This document shows positions 6,791 to 14,167 of a stretch of 17,410 bases of DNA, in pieces. The DNA comes from an uncultured delta proteobacterium (lineage in GTDB: Bacteria > RBG-13-61-14 > DRUE01): NCBI GenBank assembly GCA_903930515.1, contig CAIYYW010000343.1, positions 1 to 17,410 on the forward strand, written 5' to 3'. Made by a program: the position numbers and the translations under genes. Position 1 is the first letter of the stretch. Every line of letters starts with the position of its first letter. The notes under the pieces are model-generated. The model did not search any database and had not been told where the DNA came from. It saw nothing but the letters and a program-made list of their open reading frames with translations.

Positions 6791-6823
6791 AAAAAAAGCG
6801 CCGGCTGAATCAGCCGGCGCTTT
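6791..6823 (-). terminator. Intrinsic terminator of the four-gene dehydrogenase/hydrolase operon
   Basis: A perfect inverted repeat, AAAGCGCCGGCTG (6795-6807) and CAGCCGGCGCTTT (6811-6823) with a 3-base loop, gives a 13-bp stem. Read on the minus strand it is followed by seven consecutive T (6797-6791). It lies 19 bases beyond the stop of the creatininase-family gene and ahead of the SGNH promoter, cleanly separating the two transcription units. Confidence 0.92.
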
Positions 6824-6841
6824 CCGCTCTTGTTTTCCTGG

Positions 6842-7951
6842 TTAAAAAGTCAGCCTGGGCAGGGAATAAACCGATTTCCAGCCTTTGCTCAAAGGTTCTT
6901 TCAGGTATGGCGCCATTTCCTTTGCGGACCGGAGCGTGACTTTTTCCACCGGGGGCAATTTCCCGGGCGGGAAGGTCTCCAGGATCTGGTCAATGCAGAG
7001 GGTGAGGTATTTGAGGATTGCCACGACCGGTTTTTTGGCCTTGGCCGCGGTGGCTCGGGTGGGCTGTCCCACAATCCCCTCGGGGGTGGCCTTGAGTTCA
7101 ATGGTCATCTGTCCCTCGCCCTCGGACCAGCGGTGGGGCCTATGGAAATTATCCACCGAGTTGTCAAAGTGTCCGCCCGGAAGCAGCGGCTCGGACTTGG
7201 TGTCAACCGCGTATTTCATCTCGCACATTCCTTTCGGGAACAGGAGCAGGGCGAGCGAGGTCTCGGCCTCGTCGGCATGGACAAAGGGGGTGTCAATATG
7301 GTCGGCCTTGGCGCCCGGATACCAGAACTCGCGTACCGCGCGGTGCCAGTCAATGACCTGGAACACGCCGGGGAGCTGGAACCGGTTCATAAACTCGTGA
7401 ATGGCGGCCTCCAGGATCCAAAGCTGGCCGTGGTTGTTGACGATGATCTGCTTGCGGAACCCGTCATTCCAGAGACCGAGCATGACATAAACCATATATT
7501 CCTTGACGATCTCCTGGGGGATGATCACATTGCCGGGCATGCCGATGTGATGATAGGGATGGCCGCCGTAGCTTAAGGGGTTGTGCGCGAGCGCGACCGG
7601 CCGTCCCTGCCTGGCCGAGTATCTCCGCAAGCCTTCGCAAATCTGGGTGACATTGAAACTGTCCAGGCCGGAAACATTGTGCGGGCCGTGGTTCTCGGTG
7701 CAGCCGACCGGGATCAGCACGATGTCGTTCTTGCGGCGGTTCTCAATCAGGTGCGTCCGGACCGTGGTCTGGATATATGATCCGGGCATGCCCAGCTCCG
7801 GCGGGGAAGGAATCCCGTATTCCGCCAGGATCTTGTCCAATTCCTTTTCCGAAGCGTCCCAAATCCGTTTCTTCATCCTCCCGACTTCCGTGTTTTCAAA
7901 TACGATCGCAGGGTGTTCCGTGGTGATCCAAAGGTCATTTCCTTTCGCCAT
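6842..7951 (-). CDS. iolN: Creatininase-family hydrolase, likely 3-dehydro-scyllo-inosose hydrolase (IolN-like)
   Basis: A 369-residue metal-dependent amidohydrolase-like protein of the creatininase superfamily. Metal-site motifs are visible: PVGCTENHGPH with Glu86 and His88, Asp97 in GLDSFN, His174 in VNNHGQL (NGHGGN in relatives) and HADEAETS at 225-232. It is longer than true creatininases (about 250 residues), having an N-terminal extension of about 75 residues and a C-terminal tail. Its partners are an IolM-like dehydrogenase and an IolO-like epimerase. In Thermotoga maritima IolN is the creatininase-family enzyme that hydrolytically opens the diketo-inositol ring to 5-keto-L-gluconate, which is the basis of the call. 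The start ATG has a textbook AAAGGAG Shine-Dalgarno 7 bases upstream. It is the last gene of the operon. Family call is firm, substrate is inferred. Confidence 0.72.
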   Translation of the reverse strand: MAKGNDLWITTEHPAIVFENTEVGRMKKRIWDASEKELDKILAEYGIPSPPELGMPGSYIQTTVRTHLIENRRKNDIVLIPVGCTENHGPHNVSGLDSFNVTQICEGLRRYSARQGRPVALAHNPLSYGGHPYHHIGMPGNVIIPQEIVKEYMVYVMLGLWNDGFRKQIIVNNHGQLWILEAAIHEFMNRFQLPGVFQVIDWHRAVREFWYPGAKADHIDTPFVHADEAETSLALLLFPKGMCEMKYAVDTKSEPLLPGGHFDNSVDNFHRPHRWSEGEGQMTIELKATPEGIVGQPTRATAAKAKKPVVAILKYLTLCIDQILETFPPGKLPPVEKVTLRSAKEMAPYLKEPLSKGWKSVYSLPRLTF

Positions 7952-7982
7952 TTTTATCTCCTTTCTTATTATTATTTTTTAT

Positions 7983-8038
7983 TCACCGCAAAGGCGCAAA
8001 GAATTTTTATTCGTAGCGCAGACACTCCTGTCCGCGCA
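7983..8038. repeat. Probable dispersed intergenic repeat with hairpin
   Basis: The 93-base gap between the second dehydrogenase and the IolN-like gene holds a direct repeat of CGCAAAG (within CCGCAAAGGCGCAAAG) and, after a short AT stretch, an inverted repeat GCGCAGAC (8016-8023) / GTCCGCGC (8030-8037) with a 6-base loop. On the transcribed minus strand the stem pairs over 8 bp with one G-U pair. From memory, very similar CGCAAAG and GCGCAGACA...TGTCTGCGC strings recur between genes in many environmental genomes and give spurious peptides with AQTLLS. That it is dispersed in this genome is inference; only one copy is in the window. Confidence 0.5.
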
Positions 8039-8044
8039 CAACTT

Positions 8045-9121
8045 TTACGGATGTATCACCACCTTGATCGCGCCGCCCTTTCGCTCGATAAAGGTTTTCA
8101 TTGCCTCGTTGATCTCTTTGAGCGGGAACCGGTGGGTGATGAGCGGGCCGGCCTTGACCCGTCCGTCGGCCATCAGCGGGAGCACCCGCTGCAGGCTCCA
8201 GTCCCCTTCGGCCTTTCCGCCGGCCAGGGTCATATTCCATTGCACCACCTTGTTGAGGTTGATCGGGATTTCTCCCGGGTAAATACCGACCAGGGCGACC
8301 CTTCCGTTCTTGCGCGTATATTCCACCGCGTCCTTGGCCGCCTGGGCCGTGCCCGCGCACTCAACCGTCAAATCCGCGCCGATGCCGTCCGTGAGCTTAA
8401 AGATTTCTTTCACCACATCCTTTTCCTTGATGTTGATGGTGAGGTCCGCGGCGCCCAGTTTCTTGCCCAGGTCCAGCCGCTCCGCCCTGGTGCCGGTGAA
8501 GATCACCCGGCCGGCGCCGAGCGCCTTGACCAGTTGGCAGGCCATCAGCCCGATCGGGCCGGGTCCGGAAACCACCACGGTCTCTCCCGGTTTCACCCCG
8601 CCGATCCGGGTGATGCCGTATTGAGCGGTGCCCGCGGTGGTGATCAGCGTGGCCTCGTCAAAAGAAAGCGAGTCCGGAATTTTGTGCAGGGTGTTGATGT
8701 GATTGATTGCGTATTGAGCATACCCGCCGTTCACGGTAAATCCATAATGGCGATGACCCGCGGCGAGGTTTCCGTAGTTCAAACAGGTGGTGTAAAAGCC
8801 CCGGATGCAGTTTTCGCAAATTCCGCAGCCCTTGTGCGGCTCCACCGCGACCCGGTCGCCGATCTGATATCCGACCGCGTCCTCGCCGAGCGCGACAATC
8901 TCCCCGGTATATTCGTGCCCGGGAATGTATTCCCCGAAGGGCGGATTGTTGGGCCAGCCATGCGCGACAATCTTGGGATCGGTCCCGCAAATCGCGCAGG
9001 CCTTGACCTGGATCAATACCTCCTGGACACCCGGCTTCGGAACCGGAACTTCTATCACTCGCAGGTCACTGAACCCGAACAAAACCGCGGCGTGCATCTT
9101 GGACGGAATCTGAGCGCTCAT
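8045..9121 (-). CDS. Zinc-dependent medium-chain dehydrogenase (polyol/threonine dehydrogenase type)
   Basis: A 358-residue MDR alcohol dehydrogenase. Catalytic zinc ligands Cys45 (AICGTD) and His69/Glu70 (PGHEYTG) and the structural-zinc loop Cys99, Cys102, Cys105, Cys113 (CGICENC then C) are intact, and the Rossmann motif GPGPIG lies at 186-191. After the second beta strand the sequence is TGTRAERL, with no acidic residue where NAD-specific members have Asp, hinting at NADP use or relaxed specificity. It is the third gene of the operon, 48 bases after the epimerase, with AGGAG 8 bases before ATG. Two roles fit: first oxidation of the cyclitol in place of IolG, or interconversion of D-tagaturonate with a hexonate, since L-galactonate dehydrogenase (LgoD) is also an MDR enzyme. 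The exact substrate cannot be read from the sequence. Confidence 0.85.
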   Translation of the reverse strand: MSAQIPSKMHAAVLFGFSDLRVIEVPVPKPGVQEVLIQVKACAICGTDPKIVAHGWPNNPPFGEYIPGHEYTGEIVALGEDAVGYQIGDRVAVEPHKGCGICENCIRGFYTTCLNYGNLAAGHRHYGFTVNGGYAQYAINHINTLHKIPDSLSFDEATLITTAGTAQYGITRIGGVKPGETVVVSGPGPIGLMACQLVKALGAGRVIFTGTRAERLDLGKKLGAADLTINIKEKDVVKEIFKLTDGIGADLTVECAGTAQAAKDAVEYTRKNGRVALVGIYPGEIPINLNKVVQWNMTLAGGKAEGDWSLQRVLPLMADGRVKAGPLITHRFPLKEINEAMKTFIERKGGAIKVVIHP

Positions 9122-9169
9122 TTTATTATCTCCTGCTGAACCTCAAGGCGCTGATACCCGGCGAACATT

Positions 9170-10021
9170 TTATTCATATTTAATTCCCATTTCCTTGAGC
9201 AAATTATTCGTCCATGCCAAGCTCGCTTCAATCATCTTCTGAGACTCCTCCGGCTCTTCCCAGCCTTCGGTCTCGTAAGAGAGCGCGCCGTCATATCCGG
9301 CTTTGACCATCATCTCCAGTGCTTCCCGCAGTTTCACCTCGCCCTTGCCCAGGATCACCGCGTTCCTCCCGACCACATCCTTCCAGTGGACATGGACAAC
9401 TTTATTTACCACCGGCTTGAGCACGGCGAGTTCATCCCCTTGCGCGGCTTGGTCCAGTTTCCATTCAAAGCCCTTCTTGGTGGTTCCCACATAATCCCCG
9501 CGATGCGGGTTGGCCGTGTCAAAATTTATCGCGAGCCATTTGGACGGGGCAAGACCGATGATTTTGGCGAGCCCGCCCGGAGAGAGCGAGAGCGATCCGT
9601 GCGGCTCTATTGCCAGATACACCTTGCACTTCTCCGCCACCTGCGCGAGCCGCGTGAGCTTGGGTTTCAGGATTTCCAGGGCCTGCTCAATCGTCATCCC
9701 CTCTGCCAGCCTGCCTTCTCCGGTCGCAACCACCGGCACGCCGGCTGCTGCGCAAAATTCCAGAGAATGCTTGAGGTCTTCTTCCGCGCTCGGCTCCGTG
9801 ATCAGTTCGCGGTGAGAGCCGATGCAGGTCACGCCGGAAAAGCCGAATTTATTGATTTTGTCGCGGAACTTGATCGGATCATCTTTGTCGGTTCGGATAT
9901 GATCGCACCAGGACATATTGGCTTCCACTTCTATATATTTATACCCGGCTTTGCCGATCCGCTCCAAAGCGAATTCCAGGCTTGACTTGCGGAACGCGAC
10001 CGTGTTGCATCCTATTTTCAA
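9170..10021 (-). CDS. iolO: TIM-barrel sugar isomerase/epimerase, likely 5-keto-L-gluconate epimerase (IolO-like), TTG start
   Basis: A 283-residue AP-endonuclease-2-type TIM barrel (xylose isomerase-like superfamily). The four metal ligands of this family are visible: Glu139 (AIEPHG), Asp168 (NFDTAN), His212 (HVHWKD) and Glu250 (SYETEG). Relatives include D-tagatose 3-epimerase, IolE, IolI and IolO. In the Thermotoga inositol route IolO converts 5-keto-L-gluconate to D-tagaturonate, and the neighbouring IolM- and IolN-like genes favour that role. The start is TTG at 10021: the upstream gene's TGA lies only 3 bases away in this frame, no in-frame ATG precedes the conserved KIGCNT strand, and a GGGGAG Shine-Dalgarno sits 7 bases upstream. 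The nearby ATG at 10028 is out of frame. Family firm, substrate inferred. Confidence 0.72.
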   Translation of the reverse strand: MKIGCNTVAFRKSSLEFALERIGKAGYKYIEVEANMSWCDHIRTDKDDPIKFRDKINKFGFSGVTCIGSHRELITEPSAEEDLKHSLEFCAAAGVPVVATGEGRLAEGMTIEQALEILKPKLTRLAQVAEKCKVYLAIEPHGSLSLSPGGLAKIIGLAPSKWLAINFDTANPHRGDYVGTTKKGFEWKLDQAAQGDELAVLKPVVNKVVHVHWKDVVGRNAVILGKGEVKLREALEMMVKAGYDGALSYETEGWEEPEESQKMIEASLAWTNNLLKEMGIKYE

Positions 10022-10024
10022 ATC

Positions 10025-11212
10025 TCATCTCCCCTTGCCGTATTTTTTCAGCGGCTTGGTCTTGCCGGTCATATCAAACACCACCTTGAGGGCCTTTTCG
10101 CCGAGCGAGAATTCCAGGGCTTCCTGCGCGTCGTCCAGGGCGAATTTGTGGGTGGTGAACTTATGCCAGGGGAAATCTTTTTTATATCTCTGCATCATCT
10201 TGATCGTGCGGTAGTATTCGGAATTGGGATGGTTGGTGTTCCCGAGCAGGAGCACATTTTTCGCGGCCAAATGGCGATGAACATTGATGGTGGTGGTCCC
10301 GGAGTCCACGAAATTGCCGGCTTCAAGGTAAGTCCCGCCCCGTCGGAGCAGGTCCAAACCTTCGGGCACAACCGTAGCGAGGCCGGTGGTTTCAATCACC
10401 ATATCCGCGCCTCTTCCCTCGGTCAGGTCGCGCACGAATTGCAGCCGTTCCTTGAAGGTGGTCTTCTTGACATTGACCGTGTAGTCCGCGCCGAATTCTT
10501 TGGACAGCTTGAGCCGGTAGTCCGAGGTGTCCAGGGCGATGATGTCGCCGGCGCCGAGCACGCGCGCCTTGATCAGGTGCGCGATGCCCATTGCGCCCAC
10601 GCCCTGGATCAGGACCGTGTCCATCAGGCCGAAGCCTCGGGAGGCGAATTCCATATATCCCTTGGCGCGGTCCACATTATTGGTCACCACCATCAGTTCA
10701 ATGTTCACGGCGATGTCAATGGGCATATCCGGCGGGACCTTGTACACGAACGAGCCGGGGAAGATATACATATACTCCGCCCATCCGCCGGTGAGATGGG
10801 GCCATTTATTGGAGGGAAAGTAAACGCCGTAGGTCCGGTTCTTGGCGCAATAGGGCCAGCCGAAAACATGGCGGCAATAATAGCATTTCCCGCAAATGAT
10901 GTTCGGGCACATGGTCACGCGGTCCCCGATCTTGAGCGGCCTTCCGTCATAATCCGGATAGGGCCCGTTCATCTCCACGATCCTGCCCACATTCTCGTGG
11001 CCCTTGACGCAGGGGAACACCCCGCGCTGCTCGGCCTCGGTGCCTGCGTAAAGGATCATTTCGCCCTTGTAAGCGTGCTTGTCCGTGCCGCAGATCCCGC
11101 TCATCTCCATCTGGATCACCATCGCGCCCGGACGGGGCTTGGGATACGGGAACCTCTGCACTTCCATTCTGCCCGGGGAAACCATCACCCCGGCCTTGAC
11201 CATCTTTGTCAT
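10025..11212 (-). CDS. iolM: Zinc-dependent dehydrogenase, likely scyllo-inosose 3-dehydrogenase (IolM-like)
   Basis: A 395-residue MDR dehydrogenase, longer than the 340-360 typical of sorbitol or threonine dehydrogenases. Ligands: Cys41 (GICGTD), His72/Glu73 (VKGHENVG); structural zinc Cys107, Cys110, Cys113, Cys122 with eight residues before the last Cys; Rossmann GVGAMG at 204-209; and Asp228 after the second strand (IIALDTSD), expected for NAD+. Inserts near residues 50-65 (after GTDKHAYKG) and 115-140 set it apart from the other MDR enzyme in the operon. Size, features and company of IolN- and IolO-like genes fit IolM, which oxidises scyllo-inosose to the diketone. As first gene of the operon it has an AAGGAGG Shine-Dalgarno 7 bases before ATG; the in-frame ATG three codons later would lie too far from it. 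Dehydrogenase certain, substrate inferred. Confidence 0.7.
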   Translation of the reverse strand: MTKMVKAGVMVSPGRMEVQRFPYPKPRPGAMVIQMEMSGICGTDKHAYKGEMILYAGTEAEQRGVFPCVKGHENVGRIVEMNGPYPDYDGRPLKIGDRVTMCPNIICGKCYYCRHVFGWPYCAKNRTYGVYFPSNKWPHLTGGWAEYMYIFPGSFVYKVPPDMPIDIAVNIELMVVTNNVDRAKGYMEFASRGFGLMDTVLIQGVGAMGIAHLIKARVLGAGDIIALDTSDYRLKLSKEFGADYTVNVKKTTFKERLQFVRDLTEGRGADMVIETTGLATVVPEGLDLLRRGGTYLEAGNFVDSGTTTINVHRHLAAKNVLLLGNTNHPNSEYYRTIKMMQRYKKDFPWHKFTTHKFALDDAQEALEFSLGEKALKVVFDMTGKTKPLKKYGKGR

Positions 11213-11301: not shown

Positions 11302-11333
11302 ATTAGTCTAATAAGATTGGAGCAGGCTGTCAA
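11302..11333 (-). promoter_or_regulatory. Promoter and possible operator of the iolM-like operon
   Basis: Minus strand TTGACA (11333-11328, 6/6), 17-base spacer, TAGACT (11310-11305, 4/6). The expected start is near 11298, giving a leader of about 85 bases. A perfect 11-bp palindrome ATTAGTCTAAT (11302-11312) covers the -10 box and is placed where a repressor would block RNA polymerase. No regulator gene lies in the window. Confidence 0.65.
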
Positions 11334-11383: not shown

Positions 11384-14026
11384 CTATCGCCTTCCCTGAT
11401 TGATCCGCCAATCAACCCGCTTGCCGGCCTGGAAAGAAACGGGGAATTTGGCCTCGTGGTTTTGAAGGTCAACGATGGTTTCCCTGCCGTCCACGGCCAC
11501 GACGATTTTATCCCGGAATCCCGGGGGCAGTTTGACCCGGAGGGTGATCCATCCCTCAGTCGGGAAGATGAAATAGCCGGAGATTTGATCCGAGTTTTTT
11601 TCTATGCCGACGAATTTGGTTTGCAGCCGATACTGTTCAAGCGGGATCAGCGGATCAATCAGGTATCCTTCCGCAGTCGGGTTGAACCCGGCCATCCGGG
11701 CGAGCGCCCACATCATCGGTCCGTGCGAGTTATTGTTCATCACCGGGAAGAGGGACGGTCCGCCGGCGATTTTACTTTCCAGCCAGGTTTGGCCGGGTCG
11801 GTCGGAGAAGACGGAATTGAACGAATCCGGCCCGGACCAGATTCCATACCATAGTTCCGGGTATTGGATCGCGTGCCAGGCCAGGGTATTTTTTTTCAGC
11901 TCCTCAAATCCCATTTCCGGATTGTGCCGGGCCAAGGCGTAAGCGCCCGGGCCGTTGATCGCGAACCAGATCCCTCCCCGCTCCTGGGTGCCCGGCTTGG
12001 CGAACAGGGAACCCTTGACATCCGAACTGATCATCATCCCCAGCTTGCTGGGTTGGCGGAGTTTCCGGTCAATATTTTTAAGCAGCAAATCCTGCTGATC
12101 CGCGCTGAGAAGGTTGTCGCTGAGCAAAGCCCAGACCTGCGGTTCCAGGAAAATTTCCCTGGTCCCGAAGCTTTTTCCCAATGCGGAATAGGCCCTTGGG
12201 AACCAGCCTTGGGAGAGCCATTGCTTTTGCAGACCGATTTTGACCCTGTCATAAAAGGCGTCAACCTCGGCCGCCTGTTTTCCCTCGCCCGCGGCCTTGA
12301 GCAGACCGGAAAAAATCGGGAGGATATCGCAGGCCATCGCGGAATTGAGCGCGCTCTCTCCGTCAAAGAAGGTGAGGATAAAATCCAGCGGATCGTTCCT
12401 GGTCACCAGCAGGGTCATCTGGTCGTTCCAGTCGCTCATCCGGAGCTGGATCAGGTTATGACGGCCGGTTCCAATGTCTTTTTCCAGATGTTGATAGGCC
12501 CGGACCAGATGCTCCAGGACCGTGCCCTTTTCTCCTTTTTCCTTGGGCCAGAAGGGCAATTCTTTTTGCAGGAAAGCAAAATCGCGCGTGGCGAAAACAT
12601 ATTCGGAGGCCGCCCATAAAATCCAGAGTGAGAGGTCGCTTGGTCGGTAGGGGATGGTGTATCTCTTGCCGTAACCTTCAAAGTCGTAAAACATCCGGCC
12701 GGAGCTTTCCTGGCTGGACAGGCACAATTCAATCATCTCCCGCGCCAGTTCCGGCTCGAAATAAATCAGCCCGAGAATGAACCCGGCCAAATCGCGGGTG
12801 GCGCCGTGGATGCCGAGGACATAAACATAATGACCGCCCTGGGGGGCAAAATGTCGGTTATAGTAGGCGTCATACAGGAAGCTGGAAGCCAGATAGTAGT
12901 TGTTCCATTCCAACTCCCGCGAGAGGAATTGATCTTGTCCCGCGGATAAATCCGGCCGGAGCGACTTCCAATAATCAATGGTCTGTTCCCATAATTTTCC
13001 CGGTTCATTGACTTTCAAAAGCAGGTCTTCAACTTTTTGCGCCTTGGCATAGCCATAGGCGAAATTCAAAACCTGCTCCTGGCCCGGCTCCAGCTCAACC
13101 TTGACCATATTGAAGAGCGCGAAATTTTTCCCCGGGGACCGGGGGGCAAGGCTTGCGGCCGCGAGCAGATTCTTGAGCCCGGCCGATCCTTTAAAGCCGG
13201 CGCCGGTAAAAATATCATTCTTATTTACGGCAAGCGCAATGGCCTTTGCGTCCAACGAGGCCAGAAAAATATCCGGAAGTTCCCGATCCCGGCCAATGAC
13301 TTTGGGGGGATACCCGCCGTCTTTAGACCAGATTTTGTCGCTCCGGGCGATGGCCAAAGATTTTTCAGGATTGATCTCCGGGGTGAATTTGATCTGGTCG
13401 CTCGCGCGCTTGTTGGCGGCCTGGGAAGCCAATACCTTGATCTCCATCGGGTTGACATCAAAATACGCGAAATATTGAACGCTCCTTTTTTCCGGGGATA
13501 AATTTTTCAGTTTCACCCGCATAATCAAGACCGGCAGGTCCCCGGCCGGGGCGAAGATGGTCTCATTGAGCAGGAGTTGATTATGTTCCATCTCTTTTTC
13601 AAAGTATCCCTGGCCGAACAAGCGCAGTTTGACCGATCCTTTTGGGCTGTATGGATAATAAGTTGCAAAGGAGGTGTCGCCCTCCAGCACAAACCCGAAC
13701 CCGCCGGAATAGGCGAGCCTGGCGGGATCATAATAATTGAGCCATCTCTGGGCGGAATCGTTGTAGAAAAGCTGGACAAAACCGGCATTAGCGGCGATCG
13801 CGTTAATGTGGAGATTGCCGATCTGATGCCAGGCCAGGTTGGTTTGCTCCGATCCTCTGATCCAGCGCGCGCGGGGATCGTTGGTTTGATCCATCTCATA
13901 CTGATATGCAACCAGGCCGGAATCGTCCCTGATCCATTTCCCGAAAATGCCCGAGCCCTGATAAAAATCCGCGCCGAGCAGGCCGAGCGTCAAAACCGCC
14001 AACCCAAATTCAATCCCTTTCCTCAT
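11384..14026 (-). CDS. Exported GH94-like carbohydrate-active protein
   Basis: An 880-residue protein with an N-terminal hydrophobic signal or anchor (about residues 4-18), a beta-rich domain (about 25-330) and an (alpha/alpha)6-type domain resembling GH94 (cellobiose/chitobiose phosphorylase family, formerly glycosyltransferase 36). Supporting strings: LNYYDPARLAYSGGFGFV in the N-terminal domain (GH94 enzymes have similar Tyr/Gly-rich text), SDWND at 531-535 matching the GDWND motif that carries the GH94 general acid, and GGIWFAINGP at 684-693 resembling the NGAxYxHxGPW region. The TGSAGW-type phosphate-site text of true phosphorylases is not seen, and export also argues against phosphorolysis, so hydrolysis or another activity is possible. 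ATG 14026 was chosen over a TTG seven codons upstream because GGGGAGG lies exactly 7 bases before it. It is transcribed alone, upstream of the dehydrogenase operon; its possible promoter (TTGCAT 14076-14071, TAAGAT 14053-14048) is weak. Confidence 0.72.
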   Translation of the reverse strand: MRKGIEFGLAVLTLGLLGADFYQGSGIFGKWIRDDSGLVAYQYEMDQTNDPRARWIRGSEQTNLAWHQIGNLHINAIAANAGFVQLFYNDSAQRWLNYYDPARLAYSGGFGFVLEGDTSFATYYPYSPKGSVKLRLFGQGYFEKEMEHNQLLLNETIFAPAGDLPVLIMRVKLKNLSPEKRSVQYFAYFDVNPMEIKVLASQAANKRASDQIKFTPEINPEKSLAIARSDKIWSKDGGYPPKVIGRDRELPDIFLASLDAKAIALAVNKNDIFTGAGFKGSAGLKNLLAAASLAPRSPGKNFALFNMVKVELEPGQEQVLNFAYGYAKAQKVEDLLLKVNEPGKLWEQTIDYWKSLRPDLSAGQDQFLSRELEWNNYYLASSFLYDAYYNRHFAPQGGHYVYVLGIHGATRDLAGFILGLIYFEPELAREMIELCLSSQESSGRMFYDFEGYGKRYTIPYRPSDLSLWILWAASEYVFATRDFAFLQKELPFWPKEKGEKGTVLEHLVRAYQHLEKDIGTGRHNLIQLRMSDWNDQMTLLVTRNDPLDFILTFFDGESALNSAMACDILPIFSGLLKAAGEGKQAAEVDAFYDRVKIGLQKQWLSQGWFPRAYSALGKSFGTREIFLEPQVWALLSDNLLSADQQDLLLKNIDRKLRQPSKLGMMISSDVKGSLFAKPGTQERGGIWFAINGPGAYALARHNPEMGFEELKKNTLAWHAIQYPELWYGIWSGPDSFNSVFSDRPGQTWLESKIAGGPSLFPVMNNNSHGPMMWALARMAGFNPTAEGYLIDPLIPLEQYRLQTKFVGIEKNSDQISGYFIFPTEGWITLRVKLPPGFRDKIVVAVDGRETIVDLQNHEAKFPVSFQAGKRVDWRINQGRR

Positions 14027-14033
14027 CGTTCTG

Positions 14034-14040
14034 CCTCCCC
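14034..14040 (-). promoter_or_regulatory. Shine-Dalgarno deciding the start of the GH94-like gene
   Basis: Minus strand GGGGAGG (14040-14034) stands 7 bases before ATG 14026. The upstream in-frame TTG (14047) would place the ribosome site inside the coding region, so the shorter 880-residue protein is the supported form. The rest of the 178-base divergent gap (14027-14204) holds only the two promoter candidates. Confidence 0.75.
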
Positions 14041-14167
14041 GGATCAAATCTTAGACTTGCGCGGGTAGTGATGCAAACCAAAAAGGGTGCGTGACAAATT
14101 TGGTGAGATCTATGGATGGGGAATTCTTTCGGCGGCTGTCCGCGCCTGGTTTTGGGATTGCGGAATT

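Follow-up and report, generated by a model that had tools for sequence, protein, structure and literature searches.

To my knowledge, only one experimentally studied pathway opens an inositol ring hydrolytically with an enzyme of the creatininase fold. The inositol pathway of Thermotoga maritima, IolG-IolM-IolN-IolO, was reportedly described by Rodionova et al. in 2013. There, IolN acts on a 1,3-diketo-inositol, whose ring it opens by hydrolysis. The pathway is credited to Rodionova et al. (2013) in PMC12632266 and PMC5931981. The subject here is a partly similar operon of an uncultured delta proteobacterium, found in a stretch of 17,410 nucleotides (contig CAIYYW010000343.1 of assembly GCA_903930515.1, hereafter the window). 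It runs on the minus strand and consists of four co-directional open reading frames (ORFs) in the order MDR1, TIM, MDR2, hydrolase, where MDR stands for medium-chain dehydrogenase and TIM for a TIM-barrel protein.

I propose that this operon is a horizontally moving module for cyclitol catabolism, in which the two MDRs would make a diketone, an IolN-family hydrolase would open its ring and the TIM barrel would act as an epimerase or isomerase. I give this reading a probability of about 0.5. The operon is an extra module and not a Thermotoga pathway with its IolG replaced, because its own genome has iolG, iolM and iolO elsewhere. The parts of the operon are as follows, all four proteins having Pfam domains above cut-offs.

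11305-11333, minus strand: promoter-like site, TTGACA, 17 nt, TAGACT; matches 10 of 12 consensus positions, the best in the region (a consensus match only)
10025-11212, minus strand: MDR1, zinc-dependent medium-chain dehydrogenase, 395 residues (Pfam ADH_N and ADH_zinc_N)
9170-10021, minus strand: TIM, xylose-isomerase-like TIM barrel, 283 residues, TTG start (Pfam AP_endonuc_2, 91 bits)
8045-9121, minus strand: MDR2, zinc-dependent medium-chain dehydrogenase, 358 residues (Pfam ADH_N and ADH_zinc_N)
7952-8044, strand unspecified: junction of MDR2 and hydrolase genes, carrying a CTTTGCGCCTTTGCGGTGAA-type intergenic repeat
6842-7951, minus strand: IolN-family hydrolase of the long clade, 369 residues (Pfam Creatininase; NCBIfam NF041098)
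6793-6825, minus strand: intrinsic terminator between the hydrolase and SGNH genes, a hairpin with a 15-pair stem and 3-nt loop, then a T run

An earlier interpretation of the window, the sequence-only reading, had described four co-directional genes between one promoter and one terminator, encoding two MDR dehydrogenases, a TIM barrel and a creatininase-family hydrolase. All of this is borne out by the features above, with the promoter-like site upstream of MDR1 and the terminator after the hydrolase. That reading also took the operon to encode IolM, IolN and IolO. IolN stands, by model, tree and active-site residues; IolM and IolO do not, by cut-offs and trees.

The hydrolase and the iol genes of its genome

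The hydrolase scores 306.4 bits against the curated IolN model NF041098 (3-dehydro-scyllo-inosose hydrolase; cut-off 245), far above its scores for creatininase (31 bits) and MftE (42 bits). About 57 of its residues precede the start of the model match. In a tree with outgroup creatininases, it is monophyletic with canonical IolN (100% support) and apart from the other creatininases. Within the IolN tree, it falls inside a long clade (91%), separate from the canonical clade (100%). Its segments TENHG...GLD, NNHG and HADEAETS align with the matching positions of all IolN rows and of most outgroup creatininases, and the creatininase-type metal ligands E/H/D/H/E are conserved in the active-site alignment. 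The metal-binding roles of these creatininase residues are well established. Structure prediction, the other check suggested for this protein, gave a model (mean predicted local distance difference test score, pLDDT, 78) that at E < 0.001 matches creatininase-family structures only.

Relatives with 57-72% identity are spread over contigs labelled Bipolaricaulota, Aerophobetes, Halanaerobiaceae, Desulfobacterales, Actinomycetota, Desulfarculales and Clostridia. Several long-clade IolN proteins in other phyla adjoin genuine IolM (503 and 575 bits), IolO (382 bits) or IolG (416 bits), and a single cluster in genome G280 (locus L101) contains IolO, a LacI-type regulator, IolM, long IolN, an ATP-binding cassette (ABC) importer and IolG. 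Given the model score, the tree, the metal ligands and this neighbourhood, the IolN function of the long clade is well supported from sequence, and hydrolysis of 3-dehydro-scyllo-inosose is the predicted function of the operon's hydrolase.

The operon's own genome (G000) encodes IolG, IolM, IolN and IolO on four different contigs: iolG at 469 bits (cut-off 355), iolM at 496, the operon's hydrolase at 306 and iolO at 322. Its iolG comes after genes for an ABC importer and a TIM-barrel protein. The absence of IolG noted by the sequence-only reading is therefore true of the operon, in which a Pfam scan of the four proteins found no Gfo/Idh/MocA domain (the fold of IolG, whose model is TIGR04380), but does not hold for the whole genome. 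Apart from the hydrolase, no IolN in G000 passes the cut-off; a second one is conceivable, since the assembly has a completeness of 93% and iolM is found at the end of its contig. In three genomes, iolO is followed by a KduI/IolB-family gene: G000 (L084 7752-8585; 249 bits to IolB), G001 and G002 (L087, L091). This is an unexpected partner for a Thermotoga-type route.

The genome search recommended by the sequence-only reading thus produced iolG, but a model search did not find UxuA. The genome does carry a UxaE-like protein (L090 6797-8260; 86 bits, over part of the model) beside a short-chain dehydrogenase (SDR) of the mannonate oxidoreductase type (364 bits) and a BtrH-like acyltransferase. 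It also has a gene of the altronate/galactarate-dehydratase family, and the presence of these downstream genes speaks for the proposed module.

Recurrence of MDR1-TIM-MDR2 beside IolN

The module was searched for in 386 genomes with the TIM protein and in 385 with MDR1. Close relatives of the set were found in G002, from the same taxonomic order, and in G173, which belongs to another phylum and whose kinship is no closer than the same domain. In G002, MDR1, TIM and MDR2 are 87, 76 and 83% identical to those of the window and are followed by a weak AAA-domain ORF and then by a canonical IolN (523 bits). In G173, the identities are 88, 73 and 85%, across a contig break: one contig ends inside TIM and another starts inside MDR2 (85% over 130 residues), with a canonical IolN (531 bits) on the same contig about 240 bases beyond MDR2. 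The matching broken ends suggest that the two contigs are neighbours.

What differs is the hydrolase. The IolN proteins of G002 and G173 are 83% identical to each other and belong to the canonical clade, while the hydrolase of the window is only 42-45% identical to them and belongs to the long clade. Either the hydrolase would have been swapped in place or IolN would have joined the set twice. Both histories would tie MDR1, TIM and MDR2 to IolN chemistry, as does the simple fact that the IolN next to these three partners can be of either subfamily.

There is also evidence that the set has moved. Between G000 and G173, MDR1 is 88% identical, IolM 65% and the altronate-dehydratase homologue 52%; between G000 and G002, the MDR1-TIM-MDR2 set is again closer than IolM (72%). 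Since the set exceeds IolM and the altronate-dehydratase homologue in identity, the comparison points to its horizontal transfer. The G+C content of the four operon genes is 0.55-0.60 and does not mark out the hydrolase as foreign.

The CTTTGCGCCTTTGCGGTGAA-type repeat that separates MDR2 from the hydrolase has three further copies around iolO in a genome of the same genus (L091 3682, 5689 and 5779). Recombination may have taken place at this repeat, which could then be the scar of a hydrolase exchange. The ORF between MDR2 and IolN in G002 (L047 9898-11214) has 439 residues and a weak AAA-domain match, and it is absent from the window and from G173.

A relative of MDR1 with 50% identity occurs in genome G318, with no TIM, MDR2 or IolN nearby. 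In plasmid records, MDR1 relatives are only distant (about 31-34% identity), TIM relatives are Rhizobiaceae TIM barrels (about 27% identity), and IolN was not found. In the two plasmid records examined, the TIM relative adjoins ABC transporters and a second TIM barrel.

The flanks of the operon include no gene obviously connected to it. On one side are trp biosynthesis genes, named from their own sequences, and an SGNH protein; on the other are a GH94-like protein, a sulfatase-like membrane protein and a metallophosphoesterase. The gene for the GH94-like protein (window 11384-14047, 887 residues, no NCBIfam match) shares the strand of the operon and lies upstream of it, and a promoter match falls between the two. 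A purine-rich, ribosome-binding-like sequence precedes the start codon of all four operon genes.

The partner enzymes and their possible roles

Neither dehydrogenase is IolM. Against the IolM model NF041097 (cut-off 450), MDR1 reaches 137 bits and MDR2 224.8 bits, and in the MDR tree a single 100% clade takes in all genuine IolM and 3ip1, their nearest solved chain, but leaves MDR1 and MDR2 outside. Cut-off and tree together rule out either protein as IolM. IolM is nonetheless the best curated model for MDR2, ahead of Tdh (218 bits); the best for MDR1 is a non-inositol enzyme. The nearest solved relative of MDR1 is 1vj0, which I take to be T. maritima TM0436 (194 bits; grouped with 100% support in a small tree). 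MDR2 groups weakly (59%) with a class of 340-residue MDRs.

The cofactor site separates the two. At the end of the second Rossmann beta strand, MDR1 has Asp, in agreement with its earlier description as NAD-type. IolM and the 340-residue class have Glu, and at that position MDR2 has a Gly-Thr-Arg loop, familiar as a sign of NADP in NADP-dependent alcohol dehydrogenases. By this analogy, the cofactor of MDR2 would be NADP. No catabolic inositol dehydrogenase of the MDR type is described in the literature searched. The zinc alcohol dehydrogenase family includes 2-deoxy-scyllo-inosamine dehydrogenases as one of its branches (PMC8366029).

The 340-residue class adjoins IolM or IolN at four loci (L039 3041-4060, L048 6776-7789, L085 10396-11415 and L086 3354-4433). 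Three of the four genomes with this class were searched (G002, G173 and G047), and none has an IolG above cut-off. Should an MDR stand in for IolG in any genome, members of this class would be better candidates for that role than the two MDRs of the operon. It is equally possible that they are sugar-acid dehydrogenases: they score 190-198 bits (cut-off 376) on the dehydrogenase model PRK10083, presumably the E. coli YjjN L-galactonate dehydrogenase family.

TIM retains the E/D/H/E metal ligands of its epimerase superfamily. Three results rule out its identification as IolO: a score of 22.5 bits on the IolO model NF041099 (cut-off 300), the absence from the alignment of the IolO substrate motifs NRYE and SNRWxPG, and a position in the tree outside IolO, contrary to the sequence-only reading. 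A fold search with a model of TIM (mean pLDDT 67.9, built on an alignment of three sequences) returned DTE-like epimerases, IolI, IolO, IolE and keto-glucoside lyases nearly tied, at Z of about 21-23.5.

I infer the substrate, the order of the steps and the roles of MDR1, TIM and MDR2 as follows. Since the genome already encodes IolG, IolM and IolO, the operon would most simply serve as a second way in, parallel to theirs, for a different cyclitol or stereoisomer. A cyclitol or inositol stereoisomer unserved by IolG and IolM would be oxidised twice in succession, by MDR1 and MDR2, to a 1,3-diketo-cyclitol. The IolN-family metallohydrolase would then cleave a C-C bond of the diketone by hydrolysis, opening the ring to a keto-hexonate, and TIM would epimerise or isomerise either the keto-cyclitol or the ring-opened product. 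Two zinc dehydrogenases would fit the two oxidations that form a diketone, and an epimerase fold would fit the adjustment of the product. The hydrolase, as the sole IolN found in the genome, probably also completes the standard IolG-IolM-IolN-IolO route. The suggestion of the sequence-only reading that the substrate is a different cyclitol, or the pathway a new branch, survives in this form and is now the better reading of the operon. More tentatively, the MDR1-TIM-MDR2 set may be a second, self-sufficient and transferred route from a cyclitol other than myo-inositol to a diketone that can be ring-opened, with either IolN subfamily as a shared hub.

Several observations weigh against a cyclitol module of this kind. 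It was seen in only three genomes, and no transporter or regulator within the operon hints at a cyclitol. MDR1 and MDR2 are so far from their nearest characterised relatives that these reveal no substrate, the fold search leaves the modelled TIM unseparated from DTE, IolI, IolO and IolE, and no UxuA was found in G000. Finally, the NADP-type loop of MDR2 would also fit a reductase that acts after ring opening.

That last point leads to the alternative that survives best, although I consider it unlikely. MDR1 would oxidise the cyclitol, the genome's own IolM would make the diketone and IolN would open the ring; MDR2 would be an NADPH reductase of 5-keto-L-gluconate or D-tagaturonate to altronate or mannonate, with TIM the epimerase between. 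The idea that one dehydrogenase handles the uronate product, already raised by the sequence-only reading, is somewhat favoured by the Gly-Thr-Arg loop of MDR2, at a position that is acidic in all IolM sequences and in the 340-residue class. A gene of the altronate/galactarate-dehydratase family is present in G000, G002 and G173, and Luteolibacter has an NADPH-dependent tagaturonate reductase, with an IolO-like 4-epimerase after 5-keto-L-gluconate (PMC12632266). However, a cofactor loop is an indication only, the best curated model for MDR2 is IolM and no uronate reductase, and the SDR mannonate oxidoreductase beside the UxaE-like gene could already reduce the uronate.

It is distinctly improbable that the substrate is no cyclitol at all but, for instance, a keto-sugar or an aromatic-derived beta-diketone, with IolN recruited to hydrolyse it. 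The fold of TIM is as near to 3-keto-glucoside lyases or deglycosylases as to IolO, and the top curated model of MDR1 is not that of an inositol enzyme. Yet the module stands beside two IolN subfamilies, the long one with an inositol context elsewhere and the canonical one being curated IolN, and its hydrolase is the only IolN above cut-off in a genome that has the other three iol genes. The least credible view is that of the sequence-only reading, a complete variant of the Thermotoga pathway (IolM, IolN, IolO) with the extra MDR in IolG's place: IolN is confirmed, and replacement is conceivable in the three searched genomes where the 340-residue class is found without IolG, but for the operon's own genome it is contradicted, as iolG, iolM and iolO are encoded elsewhere in it, and the MDRs and TIM of the operon fall short of the IolM and IolO models and branch apart.

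Comparison with known systems

With the IolG-IolM-IolN-IolO pathway of T. maritima, the operon shares an IolN-family ring opener and its types of gene (zinc MDR, TIM barrel, creatininase fold), and genuine IolG, IolM and IolO are found in the same genome. It departs from that pathway in that neither MDR is IolM, TIM is not IolO and no Gfo/Idh/MocA gene is present. The L-glucose pathway of Luteolibacter LG18 (PMC12632266) differs in starting from L-glucose or L-galactose, and no ring-opening hydrolase is described in it. Both MDRs share catalytic and structural zinc ligands with threonine dehydrogenase-like and 1vj0-like zinc MDRs, but these relatives (1vj0 at 194 bits to MDR1, Tdh at 185 bits to MDR2) are distant and no substrate carries over from them.

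The hydrolase shares the E/H/D/H/E metal ligands and an HPYHH segment with the canonical members of NF041098. It differs from them in having NNHG for NGHG and DWHR for NWYY, in its score (306 bits against 523-540) and in its place in the long clade, at 42-45% identity to the canonical IolN of related genomes. That clade is now defined and spread over several phyla. The recurrence of one partner set with IolN of either subfamily is a pointer to dehydrogenases and an epimerase, as yet unassigned, for the catabolism of cyclitols.

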